NCBI GenBank assembly: GCA_002118135.1
Contig: BDIU01000199.1
Coordinates: 1 to 64,000, forward strand
Direction: 5' to 3'
Origin: Trebouxia sp. TZW2008
Taxonomy: Eukaryota > Chlorophyta > Trebouxiophyceae > Trebouxiales > Trebouxiaceae
Length of the DNA: 64,000 bases
The first letter of the stretch is position 1. Every line of letters begins with the position of its first letter. This document shows positions 1 through 64,000 of the stretch, piece by piece. The notes under the pieces were generated by a model that saw only the letters and a program-made list of their open reading frames with translations, searched no databases and was not told the origin of the DNA. Made by a program: the position numbers and the translations under genes.

Positions 1-712
1 GATTTGTGCAAGCTGATGGTTGTTTTCATGTAAGTCTTCAAAAATCTAAAAAGAGTAAGCACAGTATAAAATTCCTTCCAACCTTTTGTTTAACCCAACT
101 AAACTAGCCAGGGCACCATGTCATGCGTCTACATCAGCACACTGGAGGCACCAGTCACGTCACCTGACAAAACGCATCTTTGTTGCATTGATCAAGCGCT
201 CTGCTCTTGAAGAGCACAGAAGGGACGCGGTCTGTCTGAGGCCTCCCAAACACGCTCAATGGCGTCGACCCTTTTTTTTCTGTTTTTTGGGTTAACCGCC
301 ATGCATATGCGGATTGTTGCAGCTGTAGCAATCAGCTGCTCCTCATGCATACTGCACAAAAGTCTGAGAGCTTGGGTGCATGTATGGCCACATGGCAGTA
401 AACGCTTGCGATTCAAGGTCAGCCACAGTTTGGTTATAAAGTTGCGCAGATGATTGCAGCAAGGTCATTGACAAATCAAGCATGGTTGCTGCTGCACCAA
501 CTTTTTAAATGACAACAGAATGTCTTCTGCATTCAGCGATGTTGAGTGTTTTGGAAGGGTAATGGAGACAACTGTTCTGGCCAGTGCAAGATGCTGTGAC
601 ACACTGCGACACTGTGCAGCAATATGTACACCTTACATGTAGCTACTATAGCAGGCATGTTGTTGGTGCCGCCCGATATGTCACACAGATCTCAGATCTC
701 TTCTGCGTGCAG
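1..712 (+). other. Upstream part of the SDR gene, no exon resolved
   Basis: No exon could be fixed here. The nucleotide-binding N terminus expected of a short-chain dehydrogenase (Gly-rich TGxxxGxG loop) is not visible in any frame, so the first exons probably lie left of the window. A GTAAGT-type donor at about 30 could end an earlier exon. The only coding-like signal is a decayed copy of the next exon at 537-592, listed separately. Confidence 0.4.
537..592 (+). repeat. Decayed upstream copy of SDR exon 713-857 (5' edge)
   Basis: The sequence after a CAG at 534-536 aligns with the first ~55 bases of the real exon at 713, sharing the runs around GATxTTGA, GGAxGGGT and TGGAGACAA. It keeps an acceptor-like CAG but no donor. 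It is the first example of the exon-edge duplication pattern seen throughout the window. Confidence 0.65.
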
Positions 713-3292
713 GGATATTGACATTTTCAGGAGGGTTCTGGAGACAAACGTCCTGGGCGTTCATGCAGTCACACAAGCTTTCCTACCACTACTCAGCGCT
801 GGCAGGAAAAAGACTGTCATCAACGTGTCATCCTGTTTAGGGTCACAGGGGTTCCTGGTAGGTGGTAAAACCTCTTTTGCAGTCAGGCTACCTGCAAGCT
901 CGGCACTTGTATGCTCAATCATCACATGTCTACTCAAACGCCACATTTTGACAAGTCATCATGTTGATGACAGTACCACTTGAAGATCTGGTCTTGCTTA
1001 GTCATCCTGCAATTGCCACAAATACAGCAAAGATGGAGGGCATTCTCAAGTTAAAGCTCTGCATTGTGCTCACGTGATTGGGCATAAGAAATCACACTCA
1101 CAACACGCACAATGCTTCTGCAAACTGTTGCCTCTGTATGGATGCACCTGAAAGCAAATTGCTGCCTCATCTCAATCTGCTGAGTTGCTGTTGATGACTT
1201 ACATCCTGCAGATATGATGTAAGAGTGCTGTCTGCATTGTGATGCTAAGTCTGACACGTCGCTCACTCCTATTTTGCCTAATCTTCACTAGTAACCACAA
1301 GGAATGTGAAGAGGCCAAGCAAATATGATGATGTCAAGGCTGCCCATGCTGCATGCAGTGGTCTAACCCTGCAGCATTTGAGAGCAGCGTGAGAGTCGTT
1401 GGAAGTTACAAGGCCTCCAAAGCTGCTCTCAACATGTGTAAGCTTTTTCCTCCTCATTGCATGTGATTCAACTGCTGCATGGGTTTCATGCAGTTTTGTG
1501 CCCACAAGCTTTGTTGGCATTGCTGTTCTTGGACACTGCACAATAGCCAAAGAAGGTCTGCTCTCAACATGCGTAAGTTCACCGCTCCTCATCGCATCTG
1601 ACTCAACTGCAGCTTGGTCAGTATGCAGTCCTTTGCTGGCCATCTCAGTTGGCATTGCTGTAAGCTTTCTTGAACAATGCCACAGCACATCATATGCCCC
1701 AATCAAAACGAGATTTGGCTTGAAGCCTGCAAAAGCTGTACCTGAGTTGATGTCATGAAATCCTCCGCCTTTCAACTCAAAGATTCAATCCTGAGCTGAT
1801 TGGAGCACTGTCTGTCTGCTTTGGGAGCATCAGCATGCCCTAAATCTGACTTACTGTTGCCGGTAAATTTGTTGCAATTCATCCTGCTGCCACTAACCTG
1901 TCATGGCAGCAAAACGTGATTGGCACAGGATGCTAGCAAAAGCGATCACAACACATACGGAATTGTGCACTTTGAAGCTCAAGAAAGCTCCCATCTCTCG
2001 CTCAAAGCATTGGGCAGATGCCAGTACAAGTGTTTGTGTCACCTTCTTTCTGTAAATGCAGTGACGCTGTGCTGGGCACAAGACATTTCAGCTGAGCAAG
2101 GCATCACATTCATATCTCTGCATCCAGGAGTTGTGACCACCAACATGGGAGCAACTTTCATTGAGTGCGTTTTTTCCTTTGCTGTAGCACTTCATCTTTG
2201 GTCTTGCTCAATGCACAAGCCGTATGCATTGCTGCTTGCTAACGACTTGCGTCATGTATGCGCCATGCACAATGTGTGATTGAGTGCAATCAGCATTGTT
2301 GTGGCCAGGAGTGTACGTTGTCATGATCTTTACATTGCTGAGATCTGGATGATGCATGTCAGGACTGCTCAACCTGCTCATTGTGCCATTCAGTCGAGAC
2401 CTGGAAATGTAGTTTTTCATTACAAGCAAAAGTGCGTCTGTGTCACAAGTGTGCTGTCATCAACTCATGACAAAGCTTGCTGCATCAACACTCTGTCATT
2501 ATGCTTAATCTGGGGCATCTCATTTGCTAGCTACATTTTATCTGATGTAGGTGCCAATCTATACTGAATGTCATGCCTCTTTGGTGACTATACCTCTTGT
2601 ATGGCTGAGATTCTGCTGATGCATGTGCTGCTTGACCTGTTCATTGCGCAGATTCCGTGAATCCTAAGTCCTGGGAACACAGTCATTTGTTGCAAGCAAA
2701 AGTGCTTCTGTGTCTTAGGTGTGCCGTCATCAGCTCATGACAAAGCTTACAGCAGCTTGCTGCATTGACACACCATAACTATGCTGTATCTGGGGCATCT
2801 CATTTGCTATTCACATTCCATCTGATGTAGGCATCAAATTACACTGCGTCACTATGTCTCTTAGGGTTTATGCTGTTTTCTGCGCAGGCACGGCAAGCTT
2901 CGCAGTGAAGCAGTCACTCTGACACCTCCTCAGACATGAAAGCTATGCTTGCTTCAGGCAGCGATTTTTATTTGTGTGCATGCAATGACTCCGCATTGCT
3001 TGGCATTTACAGGCAGGCAAAGCTTGACAGGGAACTAATCATTCAGTCACTCTACCCTCACTCCGTCAGCAAAAGTCATGCTCACTGAGGACAGCATTAA
3101 AGTGATTCACACACAGTGATTATGCTTGTGTCTGGCATTTGCAGGCAGGCCAAGCTTCACAGTGAAGAGATGAAGGCCATAACCCTGACGCCCACTCAAT
3201 CAGTGGAAGCCATGCTCAAAGTGATTGCTCAAGTGAAGCCAGAGGATAGTGGCAAGTATTTGGATTACAACGGGGAAGTCTTGCCATACTGA
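713..3292 (+). CDS. Short-chain dehydrogenase/reductase, 3' part of gene
   Basis: Exons 713-857, 1359-1437, 2062-2164 and 3145-3292 join in phase. The product reads through the typical second half of a classical SDR: a NVLGVHAVTQAFLPLL helix, the strand and catalytic serine in TVINVSS, the active-site YxxxK in GSYKASKAALNML, then WAQDISAEQGITFISLHPG with VVTTNMG, the usual PG motif after the active site. The C terminus ends in YLDYNGEVLPY before TGA at 3290-3292. The NAD(P)-binding start lies off the window or was not found, so the gene is partial. Substrate cannot be told; the overall form resembles the small C-factor/sniffer-like SDRs, which is inference. All four exons carry duplicated edges in the adjoining introns: a copy of the first exon at 537, a donor-side copy near 1561, and two copies of the last exon at 2888 and 3013. 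Confidence 0.85.
1561..1665 (+). repeat. Donor-side copy of SDR exon 1359-1437 and intron start
   Basis: About 100 bases beginning with CTCTCAACATGCGTAAG repeat 1425-1530, which spans the end of the YKASK exon, its donor GTAAGC and the start of the intron. The copy keeps a GTAAGT-like donor. It lies downstream of the real exon, as expected of donor-side duplications here. Confidence 0.7.
2320..2870 (+). repeat. Two-copy ~270 bp direct repeat inside an SDR intron
   Basis: 2320-2575 and about 2600-2870 share long runs, including TGATGCATGT, CAAGCAAAAGTGC, CTCATGACAAAGCTT and CTGGGGCATCTCATTTGCTA. The intron has grown by tandem duplication. No coding content is seen in it. Confidence 0.75.
2888..3075 (+). 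repeat. Two upstream copies of the SDR terminal exon
   Basis: Copies begin at 2888 and 3013, each after an intact AG acceptor, and match the real terminal exon at 3145 (GGCAAGCTTCGCAGTGAAG-type start). Joined to the preceding exon in the same phase, the first would read HGKLRSEAVTLTPPQT and stop at TGA 2937-2939. The second reads QAKLDRELIIQSLYPHS and stops soon after. They are either decayed exons or alternative 3' ends giving truncated proteins. Confidence 0.8.
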
Positions 3293-9741: not shown

Positions 9742-12700
9742 TCAACGCTCTGCATGTACATAGTCTACAAAGATGAATTTCTGCCTCATGACACCACACT
9801 GCCATGATGCAACCACCCCAAGCACAGCCATTCCCAACAGGGCTGTCCATGTGACGGCACTAGCGTGACCTGCCCCTGGTGCTGCAGCTGCTAGCAGGGC
9901 ACTTGCAGCCACCAGCCCTGCTGAGGCTCTCTGCCCCCATGTGAACACCTGTAGCGCCTGCATTGTGCAGAATAGTCCACAAGCTCAGCCAAGAGGGAAG
10001 AGTGACAGATCCTGCAATTGACAGGCATGCACACAAGCAGTCTGTATCTTCTCAGAAGCAGAAAGAGGTCTTGTCTGTAATTTCTGAGAAGAGGAAAGAT
10101 GTTGTAAGCAGAAACAAGACAAGGACAAGGACGCCTAGCATTGGCTGGTGTGCTGCCTGAATCTGCACAGCAGCTTTCTGCAGAATGCAAAGCAGAAGCA
10201 CACTAGAGTTGTTTGCTTTTTAGATTGCAGGCTAGGGTGCAGACAAGAGAAAAAAAGCGCCAGCATAAGGAGCAGCAGCAGCCGCAGAAGCAGCCACAGC
10301 AGCAGCCGCAACAGCAGCAGCATACAAAGCAACAAGACCGTACCATGCTGCATTGCCTGCAGTGCTTGGTGTGCTGGTTGTATCTGTCTAACAGTTGTTC
10401 TCTTGACCAGCTGGGTTGATACAAATGGCTTGGTAAGGTGTTTGTAGGCCAAGGTATGGGGCCTGCCAAGTCATGCAGCCAATGCCTGAAGGCTATCACC
10501 ATCTTGTCCATTGATGTTGGCATGAAGTAGCGCTGTCTGCCTGCTCCTTGCCTCAGCCTAGCATCCTGCATTATGATCAAGACAAGCACTCAGGCAGCAA
10601 CCTCATGCTTGGTGGTGTCTCAGCAGGATGATGGAGGGGTCCTGCCAAATCATGCAACCAGTGCCTAAAGGCTATCACCATTTTGTCCATTGATGTTGGC
10701 ATGAAGTAGCGCTGCCTGCCTGCCCCTTGCCTCAATTTGGCATCCTGCAGTAGAATCAAAAATCTGTTTAGCCAAGTTGGGCAGCTAACACCTAGGAGGG
10801 TAAAATCTGATTTGTGCATGGATGTTGGCATGAAGAAATGCTGCCTGCCTGCCACTTGTCTCAGCCAAGCATCCTGCACTGTTGTCAAGACCAGCATTTC
10901 ATGCTTGGTAAAATCTCATGCTTGGTAAAATCTCAGCAAGTCAGGATATGGGGCCCGCCAAATCATGCAACCAGTGCCTAAAGGCTATCACCATTTTGTG
11001 CATTGATGTTGGCATGAAGTAACGCTGTCTGCCTGATCCTTGCCTCAGCCTAGCATCCTGCATTTGGATCAAGACGAACCTTGAAGGCATCAATTGGAGG
11101 CAGCAGTTTCATGCAGACAATGCCTGAAGGCTATCACCATTGTGATAGTTGATGTTGGCATGCAGTGGCGCTGCCTGCCTGCTCCTTGCCTCAACCTCGC
11201 ATCCTGCGCTAGGATCAAGTCAACTTTGGGAGGTTTGTCAGAGTATGCAGCCGAGACTTGAGAGTTGGCACTTTGTTGGCATAAAGCAGCTTTGTCTGCC
11301 TAGTTCTGGCTGTATGCTTTAGGCAGAGTTGAACTATCCCAAGTCATGCAGCTACCGGTGATATGTTCCTAGCCTGTGGACATATGGCAAACAGTGTGCA
11401 GTTCATGATACGGCCTTGAACTTGATCATCTCTCATGCAGATTCATGACATGGGTTTGATGTGATGTGTGATAGCTGGCCTGAGGCATAGACGGGGCATA
11501 AGACAGGGTGATGAACTGAAGCACCTGTATATGAAGGACAAAATTATTACACATGCTCAAAATTGACCACCTCTTATTTAGTTTATAAGCAGACCTGTAT
11601 ATGCAGGAAGAAATTGTCACCATCTAGGGTGTCATTTCTCCCAAGGTGGATGGCCCATGTCATCCAGCTAGGAGTCATAGCTGCAATCAGCTGCTTATCC
11701 CTGGCAAAGGTATTTCTGTCGGCCAGCATGGTGTATAAAATGCGGCTGTGGCCTGGTGTTGTTGGCGTGCAGTATAGGATGAGCTGCATCCCAAGCGTGA
11801 TGAATTGGTACCTGCAAATCACAAGAGTTGTAGCTGGGTTCAGCGCGGAGTGACAGCTGCAATCAGCTGCTTGTTCCTGGCAAAGGTGCATCAGTCAGCT
11901 AGCATCGTGTAGAAAACGCGGCTGTGGCCTGGTGTTGTTGGTGTGCGGTAAAGGATGAGCTGCGTCCCAAGCGTAGCAAAATATACCTGCAACCAACATG
12001 GACTTGACTTGGTATTAAAGCAATGACTGTGTCACTTGTCGGAGTGTGGAAGATGTGGCTGAGGCCTGGTGTTGGTGTGCAGTATAGGATGAGCTGCATT
12101 CCAAGCATAATGAAATGGTATCTGCAAAGGAAAGCAACTTGACTCAGCACAGGACTGTAACGAAGAATGGAAGACTGATGGCGTCAGGCAGCATTTGATA
12201 GAAGTTGCAGCTGCCGCCTGGTATTGTTGGTTTGCAGTATAGGGTGAGCTGCATGCCAAGCGTTACAAGATGGTACCTGCAATACAGAACAATAGCAGTT
12301 GAAGTGTGTAGGTTGATCAGCTAAGCATTGCGTTAAAACCATGCAGCTGTGGCCTGGTGTTGTTGGCATGCATTACAGGATGAGCTGCGTACCAAGCATG
12401 ACAAAATGGCACCTTCAAAGCAAAATGATCTAACTCAGCACGAGACTGTGACAATGTATGGAACACTGAATGTGTCAGCTACCCTGATGCAGAAGACGCA
12501 GCTGTGGCCTTGCATTGTTGATGTGCAATATAGGATGAGCTGCATCCCCAGCGTGACAAAAGGGTACTAGCAGTGCAGAGTCAAAGCTTGACCTGACAAA
12601 ACACCAGGTGGACGTAGTCAACGTCTTGCACTCTGGGCAAGCCTGCAGACACCAAATGTGATGGCTGTATCTACATCAATCTGCCAGAACACCTCTTGCA

Positions 12701-15700
12701 ACCAATCAGGCAATATCTCAAATAATATAAGACTGTAAGGCTTCCTAGATATTACTGTGGTTCTGGGATATATGGCTGTTTTGCATTAACTCAGTGACCC
12801 ACCTGACTCATAAATGCTGAATGAGACAAAATTCTGTTGCAGCAAGATTTCATGGCTACTGTAATGTGCAAAATGAACATGCCTGTGTGTTTTTGAAATG
12901 CAAAAGCACGGCAGAAAGATGCCAACCTGACAAGTGTTGGAGGCTTGAACTCAATTTTCCTGGTCACAGGACTGTCGTCTGGCAGAGATTCCTCGGTTGT
13001 GTCTCTAACATGTACCGCGCATCCGATTTCTGGCTGAACAGCTTCAGCAATGCTCATCCTGCTGATCAGGTGTTCATCTCTGCCACCAAAAACAGCATGG
13101 TGTGCATATTCAACATGGGACGGATCAACTAGGTTCTCCAGTAAGACGTCTTGGCCATATGGCAACTCTCGCATGAACCTGCAAACATGCAAACCATAGA
13201 CCAAGATCATAGGCCTGGCGTACATGACCAGAGCATGCGCATATCATCAGATGCACATAGCATGACCCGCATTCAGGGAAGAAGGGCTATACATACGGTG
13301 AGCAGCTATTGGCAATGTCTTTATGTGCATGAGAATTGCAGTGCTGTGGATGTTGACTGATTTAGCTTGACTCATGTCAACTTTGCATTGCAGATAGTGG
13401 GCACACACTTCGGCTTTGCATGCTTGCCAATTATGCAAAACCCTTGTGCTGTGTGCAATGACCATGTCTCGCTTTTGTGCTAGAAAATGACACAGAGAAG
13501 AGGGGCGGAAGAAGCCATGACAGTTAGAAAGTTAAGCCATGCAGCAGCTGTTGTACACGGTTTCTCAAGCTGCAAAGCTTTGCCAACTTTGCTACACAGC
13601 AATAACAAAGTCGCTGAGGGTAAAGAGCAGCATAACAGGAGCTCAGCAGCCAATGCAGAGAGATCTGACAAGTGCACTTATGCGCTCAGTGCATGAGCGT
13701 TGGGCATGATACATGCGCGTTGCCAGGCCTGTTCAGAGGTACAAATGATGTCTATCATATGGCTGGGCATGCAGAAGCTGCACTGATCAGCAGACGTCAA
13801 AGCATACCATGGATGCAGTACGAAAGCCCAAGGCTTGTCAAACCAAGCACCGTCATCAATAGGTTGCTTGGCCAAGCAATCCAGCTTGGCGTTAGGGCTG
13901 GCATCAGCCCATACCCACAGCACATCCTGTTGAATCTGCACGCACAGTCACACCTCTGGCATTCATCAATGGGTTGCTTAGCCTAGCAATCTAGCTTGGC
14001 ATTAAGGCTTGCATCAGCCCCTACCCACAGCACATCCTGCTGAATAGTCACACTGCAGGCAGTCAGCCAGGACATCATGATCAGCAATGGGATGCTTGGC
14101 CCAGCATTCTAATTGAGCGCAAGGGCCTATACCCACAGCATATCCTACACTGCAGGCAGTCAGCCAAGACATCTTGATCATCAACAGGTTGCTTGGGCAA
14201 GGAATCTAGTTGAGCATTAAGGCTTGCACCAGCCCATACCCACAGCGTATTTTGTTATATATACATGCACACTCACACTGCAGGCAGTCAGCCAAGACAC
14301 TGTGATCATCAATGCGTTGCTTGGGCAAGCAATCCAGCTGAGCGTTAGGGCTTGCATCAGCCCAAAGCCATAGCACATCTTGCTGGACCTGCATTCACAT
14401 TCACGCTTCAGGCAAATAGTTGAGACAGGGTGGCGCGTACGTGACCATTGGGTTTTACAATAGAATCAGCTGTGATGTAAAAACTTTGGAGGCAGTCAGA
14501 GCATGGTCCAAGGATCTCTGTGCACGTGCTCAGACGTGCTGCAACCAGACTGAGTCAGGAAGCAGAGAGCAAAATACAAGTTGCAATGTTTCCTGACAGT
14601 TGATGAGTGCATGAGTGATGCCGGCAACAAAAACAGCATCCACATGCAGGATGTGCACACAGAAAAAGAAGAGAAAAGTCTAAGCCGTTAGGTGTCATAG
14701 CGAGAGCCTCTGTCTCAAGAGGCAGCCCAGGATATGCACACAGTTCAACGCTACATGATCATTTTGATTGTCTTTTGCAACAGCAGGCAGCTGTGAAGTT
14801 GACTGCACCTGTGTTGGAAATATTGCAACACAAGCCTTTGACTGATGCATTATTCTGGACTCCTCATCTTTGCTTTCTGCCTGTGGGACCTTGGTGCAGT
14901 GCCCTTCTGAATCAAAGCGCCAGCCGTGATATGCGCATTGTAGTGTGTTGTCTGACTCAATGCGCCCTTCAGATAAGGGCACTGACCTACATCACAGCAG
15001 GAACGTCATACGTCACACATACGATCAACATGCCCATCAGAGCAAACGAAGTTTGGTTTTTTTTTTTTTTTAAATTTAAAGCCATTCTGTGTTGCCAGCA
15101 TGTGAGCAACTGCATGCAACAGGACAGGCTTTAAATCAAGCAGATTGCGACTGAATGACATCTCTATGCCATCCTCTTGGTGCCACAACTGTGGGACATG
15201 TGTACACTACACAGCATCTACATGGTTGTTTTTCAGGGTGTGAGTGGCGACGGGACTGACAATGCTAAGCTCACAACAATGCTTGCATGATTGAAATTGT
15301 CAGAAGATGTGGCATACTGCAGCTTGGGCACCTGTGGGGGCAGATGTTGTCAAAGCACTGCCATTGCCCTCTCCCGCTGGTCCATATGACCAGATCTTTG
15401 CCAAGCAATTTGATGGCTGTTGGCCTGTCAGTTGGCAGATCAGCCACAATAGCTACAGGGTACCATTGCTTGGTCCAGGAGTATGGCTGGGCTGGTTTGG
15501 ATGGTAAGTGGCTGCGTTCAGTGCTATCTGCAAGGCATATTCCCTGAATACCTGACACTGAATATTGGGAAGACTTGATTGATTGCTATGTCCATGTACA
15601 GGAACAGCACAGCAAGCGTATTTCGTGAGTGAAGCCTGCTTGAAGTCAGCACAGACTTCTGTGACGAGGCTTACTAAGCCAGGGTAAGCTGACCTGATCT

Positions 15701-17905: not shown

Positions 17906-20900
17906 ATGACCGAAGCCAAACTCAAACAGCTCGAAAAGCAGCTCAGCAAGGTGACGTTGCAGCGAGATGAGCTGCAGCGCGATGTCGAGTCTTTCTGCAT
18001 GCAAGGCGCCGGCAACAGCATCTTCGATAGCTCTTCCGTCCTCAGCGAGCGAATATACGCGAACGAGAAGGAAATCAGCAGAACGCGCTCACAACTAGAA
18101 GCAGTCACGGAGGAGAGGGACAATTTGCGCGAGGATCTCAGAGGTCATAGGGACAGCAAGCGGCAATCTGACAATGGTTGGCGGGCAGAAAAGCAGCGAG
18201 TGCAGGCTCTGGAAAAGGAGCTTGCGTTTTACCAGACACACAGCACCAAAGCATTTGCTGACAGGGATAAAGCGGTTCTAGAGGCAGAACAGCTCAAAGC
18301 AGACAACCTGTCTCTCCAACGCAGACTCACAAAAGCTGAAGGCACAGCAGCGCAGAGCTCAGCAGTGGCAAAAGAAACCCAAAGTCTACTTGACACTGCT
18401 CAGCAAAGAGTGGCAGAACTAGAGATCAAGGATGTGGAGTGTCAGGCAATACCAGGCTTGCGGCAAGATCTGTCAGATGCCCAAGATCAAATTGCTGACC
18501 TTACAGTAAGTTCTGTTGCAGCTATTTGCCCAAATCTGCCAATTTGCGCCTGGCTGTTGTTGCGATCCTCCTTATAGAACGCTTGACATGCGCATAGCAA
18601 CCTTCAGTGCTGGTTGCATTGTCAGCAGGATATGGCTGCGCGTACTGTCCAGGCAGATACAATCACTCTTGAAAGCAGCTTGCCTTCAGATGCGTTTACA
18701 TTGAGAGCAGCTAGATCACATGTCATGCTGCATGGTGCTTGCATGACATAGAACCCATGATGTTGCTTAGCCTGCACAGTCATCAGCAGTGGTTTGCCCA
18801 AAGCTTCAACAGACTCTTCACTTGCTGTTGTACTGATGCCTGTCTGGCAATGCTGCAGTACAATCTGAGGATAGCCAGAACGGAAGGCGCTGATGCAAGC
18901 CAGCGAGCTGATGATACCTTCACAACCCTTGATAGCATCAGGACGAAATACGATGATGCCCAAGCTGAAGCGAAAGAAGCTGCTGCAGTAGCTGTAGCTC
19001 AGATCAGCGACCTGCAGGTCATCACACATGCATTGCAGCTCTATTGTCTGCCGTCATTGTCTTTGAGGCTCCTTGCACGCTCCCGCAACAGTTGCTAGAG
19101 TCACAGATTGTTGCCAGTGGTGTCTCTGCTCAAGACTGCGACGTTCGCTCCTGCTGAGGCTTGTTTGCATACACTTGCACTTTGGACAGAAAGTCCTTTC
19201 AGACCGTGTTTTATGCGCATTCTGTTCTGCTGCAATTGGGCTGTATGCAAGTCCTTGCAATGCTCATCACCCAGACTGTGTAGCTTTACTATATAGCTGC
19301 CCGTACACCAGTGACAGAAACAATAATCCTCACAAAGTGACCTCTTTCAGCACACCACAGAGGAAGCCAATGCTGATCACTGTGGAATGGATTTGAAGCA
19401 GGCGTTTACATGCTGTTTGGCGGTGTTGCAGGCACAAGTGCAGGTTTAGCGGGACAGATTAGACATATATGATGCCAAAGCAGAAAGAGTTAGAATCAGG
19501 CATTTGACCTGCAATTTGGCTGTCTTGCAGGCAAACTCAAGCTGTGTGAGACAGGGTAGAAACATGGGCAACCCCATTCAAGAAGGACACGTGCTAGACT
19601 TTACTGTTCATTGTTCTTGTATGCCAGGTTGGCATAAGTTTATGCACATAAGCATTTGGTCAGTGCCACTTCAGACCTTGCAAGATAGGCCTTTTGTCAA
19701 TCACACCTAGCACCTATGGTGCAGTCTTCAGTTTTCTTCTCAATGGCAATGTTACTATGCAGGCGAGTTTGGCGCAAACTCAAGCTGAGCGTGATAGGCT
19801 GGACACAAGGGCAACCACAGCAGAGAGGGACTTGGCAAGTGCCACTTCAGATCTTGAAGAGGCCAGGCTGAATCTCAAAGTCAAGCTGGAAGAGCAGCAA
19901 AATCAGTTCAGAGCAATTGAGGAGGAACAGTATGGCGACTGGGAAAAGAGGGTGAGTGCATGTTACTGCTGCTCGGTCATGTCATGGTCTACAGGTCATC
20001 TACAGATCATTGCAGATTGCAGAGGCTGCTCACTTGAAACTTGTCGTTTTTGTCTGTTGCTCTCTGTGTGATTGCTGCCATGATGCTGATCTGCCATGAT
20101 GCACGTCACTGCCAACAGCCAATCTTGCCTCATACAAAACCTGTTGTCACGCATGTCATTTCACTGTCCATGTTACACAAGATTTGCCCATCTATCTCCT
20201 TAAGTCCTTGACATGCAATTGCTGTCATGAGCCATCAAACAAGAAGTCCCACGTCAGGGGAATCGCTGAGTCAAAAACCATCAAACAACAAATCCCACGC
20301 TCACTGATGTACATCTTGCAGGTGTTGTCAGTGCAACAGAAGGAAGATAAGCTGAAGAAGCAGACGAAGGACTTGCAAGCAGAGCGGGACCAGGTAAGCC
20401 AACAAGTTCAGAGTCCTGCGTAACAAACTTGAAGTGAAAAGTAGTAGCCCCGTTATGGCAGGGTGAGCGTGGTGTAAATCTAGGCCCATAGATCGTGCTG
20501 AATGCCAAGTAACGGCCACTATATTGCATTCTGCACCTGCCGGGACAATACCTGCTTTGGTGCACAAGTAAGCAAGCTGATGTTCAAGCTGTGCAGCCAT
20601 GTGATGCACATGCTTCTCTACAACATGCCAAAAAGTGCGTCTGCCTGAGACACAGGCAGGCATACAATGTGGCCTAAGCTCTGCAGCATCTTTCTGGCCA
20701 TGTGTAATCATGTAGCCTAGCTTGTTTCAGAAGCCCAAAATTGCAGCTTTCCAACATCGCAGAGTCAGAGGCACACACTTGTACTGCACAGGCCATGCAA
20801 GACAAAGTGCAAGCCCTGCTGCGCCTGTCTGAGTCAGAGCACAGCAACGCCCACAGCAGCAATCAGCTGCATCCTCTGAAGAATCTCATCTCTCTGCCAC

Positions 20901-21594
20901 AACCTTCTCTGAATGGCATTGCAGGCTATGCAAGACAAAGTCCAAGCTCTTTTGCGACTGTCTGAGTCAGAGCGCAGTAACGCCCGCAGCAGCAATCAGC
21001 TGGATGCCCTGAAGAAGCAGAACTCAGATCTGACTCATCGGCTGACTCAAGCTACTCAGGAGAAGGTGAACGCGCTGATGCAGCTGGCAGGACCTGGGGT
21101 CAATCACGGTACAGCCCCTGCTGGCAAGGGCAGTGGCCCTAGCCCCCAGAAGACAGCTACTTGGAAGGTATGCATCCTGTCCCTTGATGATCTGGCAGAT
21201 AAAACAGCATTAGTAAAAGCGGGGAAAATATTCAAAAGATGTTCACAGAAAGCATGGTCGTGAGCAATCCTTTTGGCACAGGCAGCATAGCACTTGTGGT
21301 TGTCAATCTCGTAAAAATGCACTTGGTACTTGGTACCATGTAGCTTTTGTAATTTTGATGTGGTGTTTCATGTGGTGTATTCAGCAATTAACCCTGGGTA
21401 TCTTTTTGCATCTGATAGCTGGTAATCGTGCCTGAATCATGTATAATTCTGTCATGCAGGACACATTGGCCAGCTGGCGGAACCCCTCAGCAGCACCGTC
21501 ACCGAACTCTTCTCCGATGGATGTGGCTCACCTTGACACTGACAAGGATAGCAGCAAGTCTCACAGTGCAGCAAGTACTCCCAACAGTCACTGA
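17906..21594 (+). CDS. Long coiled-coil protein (golgin/USO1-like appearance)
   Basis: Six exons, 17906-18505, 18859-19017, 19763-19951, 20322-20393, 20925-21167 and 21460-21594, all join in phase 0 to 465 residues. The start is the first in-frame ATG of exon 1 (MTEAKLKQLEKQLSKV). Nearly the whole chain is heptad-rich (KQLEKQLSKVTLQRDELQRD, RSQLEAVTEERDNLREDL, LQRRLTKAEGTAAQ, QATQEKVNALMQL). A segment YQTHSTKAFADRDKAVLEAE recalls plant myosin-heavy-chain-like coiled-coil proteins. The tail is Ser/Pro-rich and disordered. A structural or tethering role is likely, but the family is not identified. The regular phase-0 introns fit an exon-built coiled coil. Exons 3, 5 and 6 have duplicated edges nearby. 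Confidence 0.8.
19434..19560 (+). repeat. Decayed upstream copies of coiled-coil exon 3
   Basis: Two copies near 19434 and 19530, each after TTGCAG, resemble the start of the exon at 19763 (GCGAGTTTGGCGCAAACTCA). A further fragment near 19660 (CAGTGCCACTTCAGACCTTG) matches an internal part. Stops are present. Confidence 0.6.
20792..20888 (+). repeat. Well-preserved upstream copy of coiled-coil exon 5
   Basis: After an intact CACAG the copy follows the real exon at 20925 for about 95 bases and stays open (AMQDKVQALLRLSESEHSNA). It has no donor of its own and runs into intron sequence that is also open up to the real exon. Using this acceptor would lengthen the coiled coil by 44 residues without a frameshift. 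Confidence 0.85.
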
Positions 21595-21626
21595 TGCATA
21601 CTAGTTTCCTTCATTTGCTGCACATT

Positions 21627-23156: not shown

Positions 23157-26100
23157 TCAAAGGCTCCCAAGCAGACTGGATGTGGCTGGTAAAGCTGCAG
23201 TTACTGGTCTTTGACTCAACCCTGATGACTGTTGAGCTGTTGTATTCAAACCACCACCAGCTGTCATACCCAATGGACTGGCTGTCATGGGCCTTTCAGC
23301 ATTTGAGTATGCGGCTGCACTGCTGCCAAATGTGCCACCCAAATTGGCGGGAAATGCAATGCTGCCAGCCCGGGAAGGACCATTCAAGGCGGGAATTGGT
23401 GAGCTGGTGGTGCTGATTCCCGCCATGCCCATAAAGGAGGGAAAAGCTGCAGAGCTGCCTGGTCTGGCGGAACTGAAAACTGAACCCTTGCGCAGTCTTG
23501 ATACATCTGTCTCCCTGCATGTCAGCAGTGTTTCAGATCATCACTTTCACATTGTGTATGGGTCTACGGTGCTTAATCGTTGGCTTTTCGAGCTCAAAAC
23601 TCTGTGTGAATCTGCTTCTGTACAAAAAGGGCATTGTGGTAAGTGTTGTCAGGGAGCAAATAAGTCCAGCATCAGGGCAGAGCCACAGCTTTCATGCACT
23701 TAACAATTGCTGTATCAGAGCTAGCTTGAGGAACAGAGCTATTAGGTCTGAATACAACAATCACTTGATGCAGAGGCTATTGGCCCGGAGATATTCATTG
23801 TCTTGGCCACTTCAGTGCAAAATCGAAACAGTCACCAACTATGCCACACAACCTAGTGGTCAACACTGCTTGCTGCAAAACAAACTTGGTTGGAGAGCAT
23901 TTTGTGTCATCTTCACTGCAGACAATCACTCACAAAATTGGACAATTTGCAGACATAGGACGTACCCTAAGCCAGCAGTTGTTGAAGCAATTCCAGCAGG
24001 GGCAGTGGCAACAGCCCTGCCAGGGACGGTTCCAGTCAGCCCCAGCTTAGCCATCCTTTGCCCGAGGACAGGTGGGGCGGTCAAGGGTCTGAGATGGCTA
24101 GGGGGCATGTTACCCATGTGAATGTAGTTGGGCACCTTATAGCGCGTCATGATGTTGACATGCTCTGGCAGCATGGCCAAATTGAATAGTGCCTACAAGA
24201 CATGAAAGCAAGCGTTTGTCCTGGCGTGTTTTGCCCATGGGAGTGCAGCTGAACATTTTGTAGCACATTAAGATTTAGAACGCCTGCAAGTGCGTGATGC
24301 ATTTCAAAACACAGTGACGGCATTAAGAGTCGAGTTGAGAGATGCCCAAATAGCATGCAGCTTGCCCTGGGATAATGCACACCAATGCATGACTCATATG
24401 TGGCGGGACTGCTCAGTGTGAAGTGAAGTGAAGTGAAGTCAGTGAAGTCCAGCAGCAACGACACAAGTCTGACTGCCCAAAGCTCAATCAGCATGCAATG
24501 GCCGTATGACAAAGCACAGCAATGCGTTACTCAAACCTGGCGGGCGTTCCAGCGTGCATGACTCAGTTTGGAGTCTAGCAGCGGGGTGAGGAATCTGACA
24601 GCACCAGCAGCCATGACGTCCACTTTGATGAGGTCACTCAAGCTGAGCAATCTGAGACAGCCAGCTGCTTGCGCCTGAGCTTCAGCCATACCATCCTCAA
24701 GCTTTGCCGCATTCTTTGCCTGCATGCAAGCAAGGACATGGGAAGAGCATACAGCAAGCATCCACAACATGAAGCCTCAGGAATGGATTCTCTGTCAACA
24801 AAAGCAGATCAGGACATGCAAATATTGCCGCATCAGGGGAACCTTTGAGTCAAAGACCAGACTAATCTGTGTGCTGAATGCGTGCTTCCGGTGCCACTGA
24901 TGCAGGGTCGTATGCTTAGCCGCAGTCAGCATGGTGTTCCTGGTTTCTGTGTACCTGTGCTGCTGATGCAGACAGGCATGTGAGGATGCCTACGGTGGGA
25001 CATGTGTACCTTTTTTTTGGGTTTTGCCTTGCCTTTCTTCTTTTTCTCTTCAGCAGGCGGGGGGCTGTTCAGGTCAATGGTAGCCAATGGTCCTGCAGGG
25101 CCATTGCACAGCTCCACAAGTAGAGGGATGACGCCACTGTGTGCAACTTCCTGAACCCTGGCCAGCACCTGCATGCCACCCAGGTCTCAGTTTGACATGG
25201 TGCCTGATGCAGAATCAGACATGCACAACAATACTGTTGACGGAGCTAGGCATACAACTGAGCGTCAAACAATGCAGTTAGGGCAGCAAAAAAGCATGCG
25301 CAATTTAATTTGCAACCTGCACAGCATGACTATGCCGGTCAGCATCAATGGAAAACGGAGAAAAGGATATGGAGATCGTCAACGGCAGGATTTGAACCTA
25401 CGCGCCTCTCGGCAATAGATTTCAAGTCTATCTCCTTAACCACTCGGACACGTTGACCGACGTTGCTGGCAATTAGGCGGAACCGGCAATATATAAACCC
25501 GCTGCTGAGGGGTGCCGTTCGTATGAAGTTAGAGTTGTTCTCACGCAGTGCTCACCTTTTCCTTCGTAGAGTCACGTTAAAAGATTAGTGCACACGCAGT
25601 GCTCACCTTTTCCTTGACACCATCTGCCACAATCATCTGTTCTTCCAGCCACAGCCGTTCCTCTCCCTCATCCTCCCCACTGTCAGCAAACCAGCCTAAG
25701 GCAAAGGTGACTGGCTCAGAAGGCTCGAGCTTCTTCTTCACCCTGCCAACAGATGGCTTAGCCCTTTTGGGTGGCGCCAGCACAGGGACTGTTCCTGACA
25801 GCCCTAATGAGGACGCCCCAAGTGCTGCATTTGCTCCAGGGTCAGAAGCCTGAATTGATGCCAAAGGCTGCACTGAGACTGCTGCAAGGGCTGAGGGCTT
25901 CTGCCCTCGGGCTGTTCCAGCAGCTGATCCTGGCCCTGCCCCTGCCCCTGCCACAGCTGTGGCAGCCGTAGATGCTATGAGCTCCTGTGACGTCCGTGCC
26001 ATGTAAAGCTTCAGACAACCAGCTGCACAGGCTCGCCCCTTCAAGCTGACTCTATCATCCTTGATCACCTCAGCCACAGCCAACACACCTCCAGCTGCAT

Positions 26101-39152: not shown

Positions 39153-39314
39153 GTTGACACCGATGTGGTCGCGATTCCAACACCGTTGGCGCAAGACCAA
39201 GTTTTGACTCAGTGTGATCTAGGATTGGCTGATGTCGTGCAGCATTCAAATTTGCCTGGACTGACAATTTGTCCGGTTGGCGAGGCATGGCCAACTGGGC
39301 GCTGCCCATTGTTG

Positions 39315-39742: not shown

Positions 39743-40980
39743 CTACTTCTTCTTGCTGGGCGTTGCTGCTTGTATTGCTGCAACAGCTGCAGCCCGCTTC
39801 TCCTGCTGCTTGTTATCCCAGGCATCTAACCTCATTACATCCTCTGTTGCTGCTTGCTGCAAGGCTGCATTCTCTCTCTGCACTGCAGCCTGATGCCTTT
39901 GGTGAGGCCCCAACTCTGGTAAAGCTGGCAGATTTTTGCAGAAACGCACAAATGAAGGGCTGTCAATGGCGTGCTGGCGGTAGGCTGACTCATCCTCTAC
40001 ACGAGGCGTTGGACCTGTTCTGATCGAAAGGTCGCCTGCTCTGCCCGACTGAGCATAGCTGTCCCTGCCTACCCTGACCTTCCTGTACAGCAGTTTTTGC
40101 TTGTAAGAACACTGACGTGAGGACCGTTTTGTCATGAATATAATGCTAATGGGGACCAATCACTGCATTCCGACCGCAATGCTTGCTGTCTCTGCCTACC
40201 CTGACCTTCCTGTACAGCAGTTTCTGCTTGTAAGAACATGGATGTGAGGACTGTTTTCTTATCACGAGAATTCCGATGGGGATCACCCACCGCATCTCGA
40301 CTGCAGTGCTTGCTGTCCCTGCCTACCCTGACTTTCCTGTAGAGTAGGCTTTGCTTGCAAGGACATTGACGTGAGGACTGCTTTGTTGCAAGTGCATTGC
40401 AGATGGGAACTGAATTCTGACTGCAGTGTCTCCTCTGAGCAATGTACGACCAGAGACAAGGACAATGTTGGTACTCTCAGCAGTCGCCACCAGGAGAAGC
40501 TCCTGTACATGCATGCAGCTGTGTTTGTTTGATAGGACTGCAGCAATTCATGTGAGGCGTACTCAAGAGGCTATTGCTTTGTGTGGGGTTGCAGTACAAC
40601 ACTGTCACCAATCTGTCTGCCTGGACAAGTGTCATATTGCCTAAGAGGCGTTCTTGAAGGGTATGCTAAAGCATCGTATTCTGTGAATCATTGCACGGGC
40701 TCAATTGCTTGTGCCACAGCTGCACAGCTGCCAAGCATCTGCCAGCCAGCACTGAATAACTTGCTGTTTTGTTGAGTGGTGCAAGCTACGTCCAGCAAAA
40801 TGACTGAGCGCTGCTCATGACATGCTCAGCACCAACAGACAATGAAGCATGAGTTGCCAGGTCCATTTGGGACTGGTCTTACCTGCTGAGCGCCTGATCT
40901 AAAGAGAATTCTGCATCACTCTCCATGAAGCGTGCTTGGCCTGTCTGCCGAGCCATTCTGGGGATCAATGGTTCAGCCAT
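39743..40980 (-). CDS. Small conserved-looking protein, function unknown
   Basis: Exons 40883-40980, 40333-40518 and 39743-40019 join in phase (2, then 2) to about 186 residues. The start is MAEPLIPRMARQTGQARFME. A middle part ELLLVATAESTNIVLVSGR is hydrophobic and beta-like. The C-terminal half is helical and charged (SPSFVRFCKNLPALPELGPH, AAVQRENAALQQAATED, DNKQQEKRAAAVAAIQAA) and ends in SKKK. No signal peptide or known domain was recognised. Two donor-side copies of exon 2 follow it in intron 2. Confidence 0.6.
40072..40260 (-). repeat. Donor-side copies of the 40333-40518 exon end
   Basis: Two segments (about 40184-40260 and 40072-40140) repeat the exon's last ~40 bases with its donor GTCAGG and following intron (CTGTACAGGAAGGTCAGGGT). 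They are downstream in transcript direction. The nearer ones are very similar to each other, suggesting recent events. Confidence 0.75.
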
Positions 40981-45229: not shown

Positions 45230-53621
<8,392 letters not shown>

Positions 53622-54293: not shown

Positions 54294-57200
54294 TCAAGCC
54301 ATGGCAACTTGCTGAGCAACATTCTGAATGCTGCGTGGCAAGTTTGGAATCCACTGGTTGCCTCTGGTAGCAGTCTGCAACACACCAACACAGTCAAACC
54401 ATTAAGCGTAATCAAGCATCAGCATGCACCACGCACCTGTGCTAGATGATTAAGCCTTGAATGCGCAGCAAATGAGATGACTTTGCAAATGTCAGGCAAC
54501 AACAGCCTGGCATTGCCCAAAAACGTGTCTGCCAGGATGTGTCACAGAGACCTCTCACAACAAAACAAAGAGCAAACATGTTGAACGCTAACATGACATG
54601 CCTACCTTCTCAGCAGGTGTCTTGGTGAACCACTCTGAGCTGTCATCAAAACCATTTCCAGCCTTGCTGAGGCAGCGGCCAGCATCAACGTCACAAACAG
54701 GCAGGGTGCTAGGGCAGCAGTGGATGTGGTCGTCACAGCAGGTGGCCTCAGGAAGAGGGCAGCAAGCATAGGTGAAGCAGTAACCAAAGTATTCACGCAT
54801 GCAGCAGCATGTGCTCCCTGCACAAAACAGCGATGGGTTTCAGAAATGCAGGATCAGGTGAACACAGTGACCGTCGTTAGCCATGCAGCACATTCATTTT
54901 GACAGCTTCAGCTCTTGTGCTGGTTCATGAGACAGCAGGTGATCTCAGGCAGAGGGCAGCAAGCGTAGGTAAAGCAGTCGCCAAAATTCACGCCTGCAGC
55001 AGCATCTGCTTTCTTGCAAGACAGAGTGAGCAGTGTCGACTGTGCAGTATAGACTGATACAGCCATGACTGCAGTGCCTGTTGGTCAGACAGCAGGTGGC
55101 CTCAGACAGCCGACAGCAAGCGTAGGTGAAGCAATAGCCAAAGTATTTGCGCATGCAGCAGCACGTGCTTCCTGCATGGTGCAGCCACCAGCATCAAAGA
55201 CGCAGTATACTGCTCCCAGCAGCTGAAGCTGCTGTGCTTGATCATTGAAGAGCAAACGGCTTTTGGCAGGAGGCCAAAGGAAAACTGAGCTGAAGTCACG
55301 AATGGATGCAGCAGCATGAAATGTCGGCAGAGCACAATTATCATAGCACAGCTCACTTATCAGCAGTATGCTAATTGATGCAGCTTTGCGGGTTGTGCTT
55401 GTTCAGCAGCATTTGAGCCTGAGGCAGCGGGCATTGCAATACAAAACAGCACACTGATCAGTACACAGCTTACTTACAAGCGAGAGAGATTAAGCGTGTG
55501 AGTGTATGCAGTATTGACTGTGCTGTCTGAGGGTCAAAAAGCATGTGCTGTCTGAACGTCAGGTTTCCACAGATCTGTCAAGCCCAACTGACTAGGGTAG
55601 CAGTCTCTTGTGGAGCAGCGGTACCATCCCAAGCAACTTTTGACTACACCTTAATATGATACTGCAAGCATTCTGCGTCATATCAAGGTTGACATCAGCA
55701 CTTGCTTGAGTCGGTGCTTGATGATACATGCTTCGTCTGCCAACAAACAACTGCCCAGGCTGCTTGCCAAGCCACTAAACCACAGCAACAGCAGCTCATG
55801 CATCAAAGCAACAGTTTCTCGCATACAGCCACACACAGCGCATATCAGCTTGCAACACGTTCTTGGAATGAGTCAGCAACAGCTTCAGCTAAGAGAGTGG
55901 GACACCAGAATCTTACCAGCTGGGCACTGAGTGGCTGAGTCACAGACTTCAGGCTCTGGTGCTGGAGGTGGGGTTGGACCAGGCTTGGGGGAGGGTGTAG
56001 GGGGGGTTGGTGGGGGGTTGGGGCCAGTCTTGACGGGGTAGGATGGCTGCATGGCAATCCCACACTGTCCTGGTGCATTGGTGCTGTTGGTCCGGGCCAG
56101 GCGGATGTAGCCATTGTCTCCCCACTGGTCACTCCTGCACGTGAGAGCAGCCACAAGATCACACATTGCCTGATCAGAACTTGTGTACAAGATACACATG
56201 TTCGACATGAGGTCCAGCAGGGCACTTGAGAGAACAGCACAGACCCCTGATGTGGGTCCAGCTATAGCAGCACGCTCCCTGACCTGACTGTATCAACAGA
56301 AGGCAGATTACACAGTACAGCTCCTGAATGACCAACTGGCGATTTGCTAACAGACCCGCCTGTGACCTATGTGTTTGGTAATTCTCATCCCTGCTGAGCA
56401 ACCAAAAATGATACACAGCTGTACCCTTTCAGGCAGCCATTGCCTGAGATGTCAAAATGGATATGCACAAGCGCATGTGTATGCTCACGGCAATGTCAAA
56501 TGCTTGCTAGCTGGATGAGTTCAAGCTTTGCTGCAGATTAGGTCACGCACAACAGCAGCTGGGCAACAGTCGCACCATGAGTTCTTGACAATCCAGTAGT
56601 CAACGCTTGAGTTCTTGTGGCCAACAATTGGGAATGAATCATCTGAGCCGTAGCCAACAACCAGAACACCATGGTCCAGAGCAGTTCCACAGGGGGCCTC
56701 AAAGACTCCACCAGCGTACAGCTGGAACTCACGCTGGTCAGCTTCAATGGCAACAGAGACAGGCTGGTTTGCTACTGCCTGCACAGGGATATCAAGTGTG
56801 TAAGCTGGCAAGGACAAAAGCCAAAGAAAAGAATGCAGGATCCAGCTTTGCCAAAGAGTGCCTCAAAGAGTCCACGAGCTGAAGCTTGCGCTGGTCAGCT
56901 TCAATGGGAAAAGAGACTGGCTGGTTTGCTATTGCCTGTGATGCCATCAGAGATGTCAGATTACAGTGCAGAGGGACACATGCAGGGCCAAACGATTGCT
57001 GCTGCTTGTATCATCAGACGCAATGGCTGCATGCAATAGCTTCAGCAAGGAGCTGATATGCAGGATGCTGCATGCAAGCTTTTGCTGCCAATTGCTGCCA
57101 CCTGAGTCAGTTTACAACTAACAGCCACATTGTGATAAGTGTTACCAAAGTGCGCTGCATAGTGTGCGGGCATGGTGCCTTCACAGGGCAAATGGGCCAG

Positions 57201-61046: not shown

Positions 61047-63976
61047 CTAGGCTGCAGTTTCTGAATCCGACGCCGCCTGCAGCATTGTCAAACAAGCCTG
61101 AGGCGTCACAGAGCGGCGTGTCCATCAGGCATAAGGTATCAAGATCATTCACGCAAAAACTGCATTCGTGCACGGCAGCTTCAAAAGCTACCATTGTTTG
61201 TGATGCTGCAGCAACATGAGTGGCAGATGGTATTGTCGGTGTTTTGTGAATTTCAGCAACAGCATAGCGTCGCAGGACTTGCAGAACCAGGTTGGATGCT
61301 ATGCAAGACACACGCACAATTCCATACGGAGTGCAGCTCCCAACAGACTGCTCATGAAGCAAAGGTCGCAGACGATGCACAGAATTGCTTGATTCTCTGA
61401 CCTTGTACACCGCTTCAATAGTTGCAGCCTCAATGTATGGCTCTGCAGGCACATTTGTAAGCCGCATGCGCTCCAACAGCTGATGCGCCTGTTGCACGCC
61501 ATCATGCGTGGCCCAGTACTCTGCAAGGCAATCTTATATTGGCTTGCATGCATGAGCTGTGCTGCTGCCAATTGCTGTTCTGCATGTCATGCTTGTGTTG
61601 ATCAGATGTGCTGGCTATGCTTCAGCATACATGACTTGATGTTGCTCTCTGTGTATAACCGTCACCTATCAGCCTGCTCTCACTTTATCAATGGCACACA
61701 CTGACACAAATGGTCTGCCCAGAGGAGATGCAGAGCAATTGAGCAAGACAGGAATCTGTTTGCCTTTGCAAAACAATGCTTGCAGCCGGTGGCGACGTCT
61801 ACATGCTCAACGAGAATGCGTTGTACAGGCAATCAAAGCTGCTATTACTGCATCTTGTTGATAGCACTTGTGCTCATGGCCAGTCGGCAACAATGTATGA
61901 CATGCCATCACATGAGTAAGGGACCATAGGAGCACTGCAATTGGGGCAGGCAGCAGGACATCAAGTTATTAGTGCTCAGTCCTGCATCAAGAGAGGGAAG
62001 CAAAGACAGAAGAAACGAGCTAGGATTTGCTGGTGGTGGTAGGGCTAAGTGGCAAGGCTAAGTATGGGGCTGAAGCAGGCAAAAATGCTTAAGCTACCCG
62101 ACTGTGATACAGAAGAATGTGCACTTTTTGCATGTTCAGGTCCTTGTAAGCAGAAGTTGCAAACACACGGGTGTGCATAAATGTGAATGAATGTGCTGCT
62201 GCATGTCGGCACAGTAGGTCATTGGTGTGCCATTGAGCAGTGTCAAAGCAACAATAAATAGCACAAGGCAATGCAACATGCTTACCAACAAGCAGGGCAT
62301 AGACATCGCCAATGCGGACATCAGCTTGGATCAGATGTCCCTCTGCTTCCTGACCGGAAGATAACTGCAGACCAAGAAAACACCATCAAGAGGGGACGCC
62401 TTGCTTAGCAACTGCAGTGCGCAATTGACCATAACAGAATGGCTGCTGTTGAAAGGCCTTATCTTTGCAAACTCACAATGTTTGTGCCAAATACTGCTGC
62501 CGAACAGGAGAGGCTTGATGCAGAGCATTTGTGCAATGAGACCATTGGTCATCATTGGTCTCATTTGAAAGCAGCCATCACACATACCTGCTAGGCAGAG
62601 TCTGTATGTAGCTCAACCGCACGATGAGACCATTGCACATTTTCACAGCAGTGCTGCCATCCTGCTCAAACAGCTACTGCGCTTGCAACAAGGCAGCAAA
62701 AAGAGACACTGGGTGTGCAAGTCTTGTCCTGAGAGGGTAAATGTCAAGATCAGACGTTGACTGCCAGACAGCCTTGGTGTACAGAGGACCCCTGATGCAG
62801 CTCATGTGAAGCATGATTCCGTGAGGTATCATTGGTCTCACTTGACAGCACCAATCAGGCATGCTTGCTAGGCAGGAGAGCCTTGATGCAGCCCACCTGC
62901 ACTATGAGGCTGTTGCACATGCTCACAGCAGAGCCCACTTCTTGCTCAAAGAGCTGCTGAGCTTGCAAGAAGGCAGCAAAAAGAGACACTTTGCACACAG
63001 GGCTTGTGATGATACGGTACTCTTGAGATCAGACGGCCGGTGGAGAGAGCAGCCCTGATGCAGCTCGTCTGAATCATGATGCCATTGCACACCATTGACC
63101 TTACTTGACAGCACTTGTAAGATGTGCTTGCTAGGCAAAAGCCTTGATGCAGCCCACCTGCACAATGAGGCCGTTGCACATGCTCACAGCAGAGCCAGCG
63201 TTCTGATCAAAGAGCTGCTGAGCTTGCAAGAAGGCAGCAATACTGGTCATGCGCCGTGTGAGGGACTCCACTGCAGCTTGCTTGCCAGGCTTCTGCGACT
63301 TCTGTGTGCACTTTAAGCCTTCTTGCAGGGCCTGTACAACCCAAGTCAATTGAAGATTCATTGTCATTGCTGAGTCGCCACAAGCAATCCTTGCATGGTC
63401 AACCTCTCAGGCAGGGTTGATGATGGCAGCAAAAGCTGTTGATCAAAAGTCAGAGATGGCTCATGGTGCACAGTTTCAGGTGGAGCATGTTGCACAAAAG
63501 GGCCAGCTGGCACCCTGAATGCCATAGTGAATCAAGATGCTAAGCCAGTGAAGGGGCATGTGGTGATGAAGAATCACCTGAAGCGCCTTCTGGTAATCCC
63601 GGAAGTCATCAATGTCTGTCTGAGCACAGGCCTCATGGAACAGCACCAGACTGTCCCAGGCTTTGGCCTGCAGGCACAAAGGCTGTTTGCTGCCAAGAAC
63701 GTGGCAGAGCCATTGGTAAGTATGCAAGCAGCGCAGAGATTCTTGACATGACAGACATTCTGGTTGTAGTACGGCAGCAGGCATGCGACTTGCCTTGGAG
63801 TAGAAAGTGACTATACTCTGTGCCAGCTCAGGGCGGGAACGCCAATCTAGGGTCTGCAGGTAGTTGGCAGCCATGGTGTAGATGTCAGGATGGCGGGAAA
63901 CTCCCGCAAAGAAGATGATCTTGTCTGTGTCACCAGATCTGATCAGGCACTTAAGCGCCTTCACCTTGTCTCCTGC
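61047..63976 (-). CDS. IFT140: Intraflagellar transport protein IFT140, C-terminal part
   Basis: Exons (transcript order) 63794-63976, 63578-63667, 63158-63331, 62286-62364, 61402-61520 and probably 61047-61076 join in phase; the gene continues beyond the right edge. The encoded TPR-like helical C terminus matches IFT140: KALKCLIRSGDTDKIIFFAG then VSRHPDIYTMAANYLQTLDW, SIVTFYSKAKAWDSLVLFHE, ACAQTDIDDFRDYQKALQ, FDQNAGSAVSMCNGLIVQ and VYALLVEYWATHDGVQQAHQ. IFT140 is a core subunit of IFT-A, needed for retrograde transport in cilia, so the organism probably makes flagellate cells at some stage. The first visible intron starts with GC (GCAAGT), since no GT keeps the frame. The last exon (AASDSETAA then TAG) is short and less certain. 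Copies of exon 63158-63331 fill the following intron. Confidence 0.9.
62400..63157 (-). repeat. Array of donor-side copies of an IFT140 exon
   Basis: Downstream of the exon ending at 63158, segments near 62897-63000, 62594-62705 and 62490-62560 repeat its end (FLQAQQLFDQNAGSAVSMCN-like coding) and following intron motifs (GATGCAGC ... TTGGTCTCA ... GCTAGGCA). The 62897 copy keeps the donor context GTGGGC. The composite unit is about 260 bp. Confidence 0.8.
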
Positions 63977-64000
63977 CTGCACAAAGCACATGTACCAGAT

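Follow-up and report, generated by a model that had tools for sequence, protein, structure and literature searches.

How does an intron come to hold several decayed copies of the edge of the exon beside it? The question is raised by a 64,000-nucleotide stretch of Trebouxia sp. TZW2008 (contig BDIU01000199.1, here C191:1-64000; hereafter the window), for which a sequence-only reading had proposed that introns are filled by serial duplication across splice junctions. The window comes from an assembly of 68.5 Mb in 527 contigs and has a GC content of 49.4%; the accessible text of papers on published Trebouxia genomes gives 63-74 Mb and a GC content of about 50% (PMC12712428, PMC11523091). It is nuclear DNA of an intron-rich, lichen-type green alga. 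Of the introns open to checking in this alga, we found about a third to be enlarged by repeated head-to-tail duplication of segments of roughly 150 bases that span a splice junction. The superfluous, decaying exon edges that result, which the cell evidently ignores, are here called decoys.

Nine genes with 47 introns were modelled in the window: a Rieske/PaO-like gene, a RecQ gene with a TFIIS-like domain, an ARM-repeat-like gene, a coiled-coil gene, a papain-like protease, an aromatic amino acid hydroxylase, IFT140 and two KCTD-like paralogs. Rieske/PaO, TFIIS, ARM and KCTD are the names that we take to go with the Pfam numbers or motifs. Exons were placed by a spliced protein aligner with splice matrices trained on the alga's own genome (donor CAG/GTGAG, acceptor TGCAG/G). 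For the protease, the hydroxylase and IFT140, the alga's own predicted protein was used and checked against solved structures; the last protease exon (54603-54817), whose intron holds 2 of the 30 acceptor decoys analysed below, and IFT140 exon 62286-62364 lie outside the structure-aligned parts. For the second KCTD-like gene, the model used the protein of the first, a gene-finder product that had no outside check. The remaining four models were based on proteins of relatives. The window proteins have their closest named relatives in Trebouxia: the RecQ protein matched Trebouxia sp. C0005 at 77%, the ARM-repeat-like protein Trebouxia C0005 at 92%, and the coiled-coil protein Trebouxia C0009 at 88% over about a fifth of a chimeric query. 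ARM exon 25607-26094 was treated as a single exon by judgement. A paralog of the Rieske gene on another contig (C16) added 8 introns, giving 55 modelled introns in total. The splice signals found by a home-made gene finder were clean, but it took decoys for exons and called almost no intergenic DNA; such arrays thus mislead gene finders.

The first 80 bases (acceptor edge) or last 80 bases (donor edge) of each exon were compared with the introns at a cut-off of at least 30 bits. In the window, the adjacent intron held edge copies for 13 of 47 acceptors and 4 of 47 donors; in the 8 introns of the C16 paralog, acceptor-edge copies were present in 2 and donor-edge copies in 1. Over all 55 introns, 15 carried acceptor-edge copies, 5 donor-edge copies and 18 either kind. 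The count of 18 in 55 modelled introns differs from the earlier one of about 24 arrays among 70. The 4,324 non-adjacent edge-intron pairs gave no same-strand match of at least 30 bits, bar two on the wrong side. Both of these lay in the neighbouring intron of a short exon (128 and 100 bp), because the 80-base donor edge of such an exon overlaps the copied 5' part. Inverted edge matches were absent from adjacent introns; elsewhere there were two at 30 bits and none at 33 bits. At 26 bits, chance matches emerged outside adjacent introns (6 same-strand, 7 inverted).

Acceptor-edge copies lay upstream of the intact exon and donor-edge copies downstream, so that one whole exon was left in each case. 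This polarity agrees with the sequence-only reading and supports repeated tandem duplication across splice junctions. Each duplicated edge had 1-5 copies. The spacing of the copies (n = 45) was 107-280 bp with a median of 146 bp; 40 of 45 values fell within 107-195 bp and none was below 107 bp. Both the copy number and the spacing of mostly 110-190 bp (36 of 45) had been correctly described from the letters. By subtraction, the intron part of the acceptor units measured at least roughly 20-30 bp, which would fit a need to carry the branch-point region. The window contained 27 arrays, 8 of which lay outside modelled genes and were left unclassified. Individual arrays were as follows (window coordinates, strand).

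10428..11228 (-), acceptor-side array, Rieske/PaO-like intron 6: exon 10344-10565, its 5' part copied in 5 decoys at 10665-10744, 10812-10873, 10978-11057, 11124-11203 and 11274-11310, the last one past the array end
11665..12592 (-), acceptor-side array, Rieske/PaO-like intron 5: 5 decoys, exon 11595-11811; one copy in the protein P0121 (see below)
13853..14432 (-), acceptor-side array, Rieske/PaO-like intron 3: 4 decoys, exon 13808-13935; one copy in P0121
19385..19831 (+), coiled-coil gene intron 2: acceptor-side decoy 19531-19588, its AG kept in one alignment and lost in another, plus an intron-only pair of period 98
20789..21025 (+), single acceptor-side decoy, exon 20925-21167, period 133
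24344..24556 (-), donor-side pair, ARM-repeat-like intron 9, with a short exon part; missed by the 80-base edge test
26929..27519 (-), acceptor-side array, ARM-repeat-like intron 5: 2 decoys by the edge test, about 3 units by self-alignment
28095..28388 (-), single acceptor-side decoy, exon 27992-28165
28984..29201 (-), single donor-side decoy, exon 29140-29326, GT lost
31613..32343 (+), repeats with the 5' edge of exon 32046-32228, aromatic amino acid hydroxylase; upstream exon without homology support
40058..40428 (-), acceptor-type array, on a gene-finder model only
45976..47577 (+), RecQ intron 3: decoys from both ends, 4 donor-side (exon 45886-46138) and 3 acceptor-side (exon 47485-47584)
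48014..48239 (+), single acceptor-side decoy, exon 48154-48403, AG lost
49331..49534 (+), single donor-side decoy, exon 49230-49415
49822..50205 (+), single acceptor-side decoy, exon 50089-50264
50660..51153 (+), acceptor-side array: 3 decoys of exon 51065-51239, GCAG kept in all
52704..52942 (+), sole array classed as intron-only within the modelled genes
54708..55269 (-), acceptor-side array, papain-like protease: exon 54603-54817 (beyond the structure-aligned part), 2 decoys
56652..56938 (-), single acceptor-side decoy, exon 56576-56778
62485..63240 (-), donor-side array, IFT140: 2 decoys of exon 63158-63331, GT kept in one and not in the other

Self-comparison of the window gave 47 direct repeat pairs and 1 inverted pair; 45 of the direct pairs lay within 3 kb, and the remaining 2 were the tandem paralogous gene pair. 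We then used a wider sample, consisting of the window and 15 non-repetitive stretches of up to 10 kb each (212,092 bases; the window counted as one of 16 stretches), from which four atypical stretches (L014, L024-L026), repeat-rich or short and of low GC, were kept out. Pairs at most 1 kb apart were direct in 152 cases versus inverted in 3. Together with edge matches confined to adjacent introns, this confirmed that the intron-filling copies are real. Self-alignment against a shuffled control, proposed with the original claim as a check, likewise came out in its favour: an ungapped diagonal scan of the 16 stretches found 96 clusters, and one dinucleotide shuffle per stretch found none. Calibration showed that the BLAST self-search missed units below about 80 bp, and unit sizes were therefore taken from the diagonal scan, which is free of BLAST's near-diagonal limit. 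The unit size was 85-204 bp in 63 of the 96 clusters, with a peak at 85-200 bp. At least one array was present in 14 of the 15 other non-repetitive stretches.

Genes elsewhere in the assembly were screened through protein-family matches. Among the matches listed, 404 lay outside the window (for kinesin, 157 had been found), after 12 from the window had been dropped. These contained, among the matches listed, 9 acceptor-type and 9 donor-type re-matches and 3 decoy-decoy pairs; 22 partial overlaps were not counted. We set aside C16:159055, a real exon with an over-extended neighbouring match, as well as C184 and C275 (twice), judged unsafe by eye. This left, among the matches listed, 7 acceptor-type and 7 donor-type re-matches and none of opposite type, so that 14 of 14 had the predicted polarity, 2 of them being weak (E about 0.2). 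They fell in HSP70, HSP90, kinesin and myosin domains and in the C16 paralog, with confirmation at the DNA level for the three C16 ones only. Cpn60/TCP1 and peptidase C1 matches gave no re-matches in this screen. A general acceptor bias, suggested by the ratio of 13:4 in the window, was dropped in view of the 7:7 ratio in the families.

Introns that carry arrays have twice the length of the others. Median intron length was 745 bp with arrays (n = 18) versus 353 bp without (n = 29; P = 5e-6); after subtraction of array bases, the median of array introns was 372 bp. Over the 47 introns, arrays made up 31% of intron bases. How introns lengthen in the absence of transposons can rarely be seen; in these arrays, the conserved exon provides a reference with which duplications can be counted, dated and placed.

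For the Rieske/PaO-like gene, a spliced product was available for comparison. Protein P0121 (400 amino acids) comes from a 1,590-bp contig, and its residues 1-398 are identical to the spliced Rieske model, while the matching genomic exons span more than 4 kb. Judging from this length and identity, the contig is evidently a spliced transcript of the species itself. P0121 covers exons 1-6 and contains a single copy of both duplicated edges there (exons 4 and 6), that is, of two edges in one gene; the array before exon 7 lies beyond its reach. Its last two residues would follow if exon 6 (11595-11811, -) were spliced from a donor located 26 bases upstream of its main donor; the resulting frame shift leads to an early stop, the end expected for P0121. 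Two array introns occupy corresponding sites in the Rieske gene and the C16 paralog (residues 321-323 and 394-396), within 1-2 residues, as judged through two homologous query proteins that were not aligned to each other. The duplications in the two genes probably recurred independently, since decoys, each compared within its own gene, resemble their exons far more closely than one paralog appears to resemble the other.

We next asked how decoys decay. In 30 acceptor decoys compared with the real copy, identity was about 0.59 at intron positions -30 to -6 (gaps counted as mismatches), 0.82-0.88 over the five bases TGCAG that close the intron and 0.79-0.86 in the exon; divergence of the exon part of the copies ranged from 5 to 43%. 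AG positions were kept in 53 of 60 cases (0.88), compared to about 0.87 at neutral exon sites, and 12 of 16 GT positions matched in 8 donor decoys. As had been claimed, the duplications thus create decoy splice sites, which are mostly retained. Differences between decoy and real copy at codon positions 1, 2 and 3 were 0.136, 0.117 and 0.251 in the 27 decoys with an unambiguous frame (11 of 38 were dropped). This 1:1:2 pattern is that of one neutral and one constrained copy: positions 1 and 2 record the decoy branch alone and position 3 records both branches, indicating that decoys evolve freely. Mean identity between decoys (0.793) was lower than that between decoy and real copy (0.845), in all nine arrays with at least two decoys. 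In-frame stops were present in 4 of 27 decoys versus 5.8 expected under neutrality. Decoy splice sites show neither purging nor special retention. Each array sets real and decoy sites of similar sequence side by side, with as many as five decoys in one intron, and amounts to a natural experiment in splice-site choice.

The claim of an "active, genome-wide process" held for the presence of arrays elsewhere in the genome, but not for activity. Among 80 clusters with units of at least 75 bp, none reached 95% identity, 6 reached at least 90% and 45 lay at 80-90%; one of all 96 clusters reached 95%, with a unit of 49 bp. Ongoing duplication is not supported; recent events either are missing or lost, or were collapsed in the assembly.

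The arrays resemble several known systems, described here from the accessible parts of the cited papers. Internal gene duplication (Gao & Lynch 2009, as cited in PMC4974935) likewise consists of tandem duplication of segments within one gene; in contrast, the alga's units are partial, serial and junction-spanning, and leave the protein and the intron number unchanged and the introns longer. A nearby direct second copy of a segment of the gene itself was indeed found, and introns of other genes gave no same-strand match to the exon edges at 30 bits or more. Patch-repair duplications in rice (PMC7971508; Vaughn & Bennetzen 2014 and Schiml et al. 2016, as cited there) are also head-to-tail direct copies, whereas the alga shows mostly old events, visible via the conserved exon. 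In intron gain by tandem duplication (PMC4974935; Drosophila, PMC2891723), duplicated exon sequence turns intronic as it does here, but in the alga existing introns are enlarged and the 47 introns tested showed no sign of a new one. Introners (PMC9860276) similarly change intron content en masse; unlike them, comparison of exon-edge copies revealed no element common to introns of different genes. The main text of two Trebouxia genome papers (PMC12712428, PMC11523091), as far as accessible, contains no occurrence of the word "tandem". What is new is the scale and the serial, junction-spanning form, seen within one genome; otherwise the phenomenon works like internal gene duplication. The sequence-only reading knew of no standard name for it; its components are covered by known names, internal gene duplication and patch-repair tandem duplication.

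We consider it probable (roughly 0.85) that ordinary serial tandem duplications of 100-200 bp enlarged the introns and were tolerated where an intact exon remains. A unit lying across an acceptor would yield intron part, decoy exon edge, intron part and real exon, with the donor case mirrored. Selection would retain a duplication if one whole exon still has a branch-point region and splice sites of its own; the spare edge would then drift as neutral intron sequence, and later duplications could act on the tract already duplicated. The polarity follows from tandem duplication and the need for one whole exon, with no special machinery, and the apparent focus on exon edges is partly a matter of detectability, because the intact copy is conserved. 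Under exon definition, decoys would be ignored since the partner splice site is missing from a partial exon. The likely mutational source is a known one, end-joining or the patch repair of nicks lying next to each other. According to the accessible text of PMC7971508, no insertions are commoner in rice than tandem duplications; these are enriched at 50-200 bp and attributed to such repair of adjacent nicks. The unit peak of 85-200 bp compares with 50-200 bp for patch repair, with a ratio of aligned length to period often below 1, the copies being decayed.

Several points weigh against this explanation. According to the same text, the tandem share in rice drops beyond 125 bp and is 5% by 200 bp (PMC7971508), which puts the median spacing of 146 bp at the high end for patch repair; the copies are too decayed for breakpoint microhomology to be read, and patch repair stays a candidate source. 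Almost no young duplications are seen, which neutral accumulation at a constant rate would not lead one to expect; if duplication were steady, young copies should be present, barring contraction by recombination, assembly collapse or a slowing of the process. Finally, the arrays may be placed non-randomly. Of the 18 classified arrays, 1 was intron-only, versus an expected share of 0.38 (0.27-0.41 under other assumptions; P 0.001-0.03) in a random exon-preserving simulation, and with the further intron-only pair the count was 2 of 19 (P = 0.009). Together with the median spacing of 146 bp and the absence of any of the 45 spacings below 107 bp, this speaks for a process that itself prefers exon-intron borders, for example through patches the size of a nucleosome at exon edges or through nicks linked to transcription, with introns growing mainly from their ends. 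However, how long the introns were when duplicated had to be guessed, and where a copy lies wholly within an intron both members of the pair decay and are lost from view; the size of the gap depends on the assumed intron decay rate, P rising to 0.03 with faster decay. We regard such targeting as doubtful, though it is the most serious competitor. Equally tentative is the idea that a past burst of junction-targeted, roughly nucleosome-sized duplication mainly drives Trebouxia intron growth, with arrays forming about 30% of intron DNA in modelled genes and intact decoys tolerated because exons, not introns, are recognised. Placement of 74 arrays on gene-finder models gave 31 acceptor (14.4 expected at random), 17 donor (14.1 expected) and 6 intron-only arrays (15.5 expected), the same direction, and was not used.

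It is unlikely that the copies function as alternative or recursive splice sites or as tandem alternative exons, even though their splice dinucleotides are largely kept, the gene finder called several of them exons and the end of P0121 would fit a shortened exon 6 donor. AG retention is that of neutral exon sites, the divergence at positions 1 and 2 (0.117-0.136) equals the extra divergence at position 3, and P0121 holds none of the decoys that it could show. The partial exons and the neutral codon pattern speak against duplicated alternative exons in particular. Birth of introns by tandem duplication inside exons (Rogers/Hellsten model) would also duplicate coding DNA in tandem. It is very improbable: when the start of each of the 47 introns was compared with the downstream exon start, and its end with the upstream exon end, no match exceeded mismatched pairs, and in the Rieske gene two array introns have the paralog counterparts mentioned above. 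An assembly artefact, conceivable insofar as the assembly technology was unknown to us, is no more credible, given copies that differ by 5-43% in the exon part, arrays in nearly all other stretches and no sequence common to arrays of different genes in the edge test. Least probable of all is filling by introners or other transposable elements; density across genes would suit it, but the repeats are local and direct, and the non-adjacent pairs gave no same-strand edge match of at least 30 bits, the two short-exon overlaps apart.

Some further features of these genes and stretches were noted. The RecQ helicase gene (45352-53621, +) runs on into a TFIIS N-terminal-like domain, which we take to be what PF08711, listed for the RecQ homolog P0002, denotes. 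Simple repeats adjoin its arrays at 47408-47444 and 48812-48880 (12 GCT units and 14 CTGTG units). The tandem KCTD-like gene pair (33868-39241, -) shares about 72% DNA identity; arrays were absent from its short introns (183 and 199 bp), which are uninformative. IFT140 (61402-64000, -) serves flagellar transport; the alga is usually seen without flagella. The excluded stretches L024, L025 and L026 (contigs C17-C19) are repeat-rich, with a GC content of 0.39-0.44 and many distant direct and inverted repeats. At 59622-60040 (-), a repeat of about 73% identity lies within a presumably HN1/Jupiter-like protein and is apparently coding, not a decoy.

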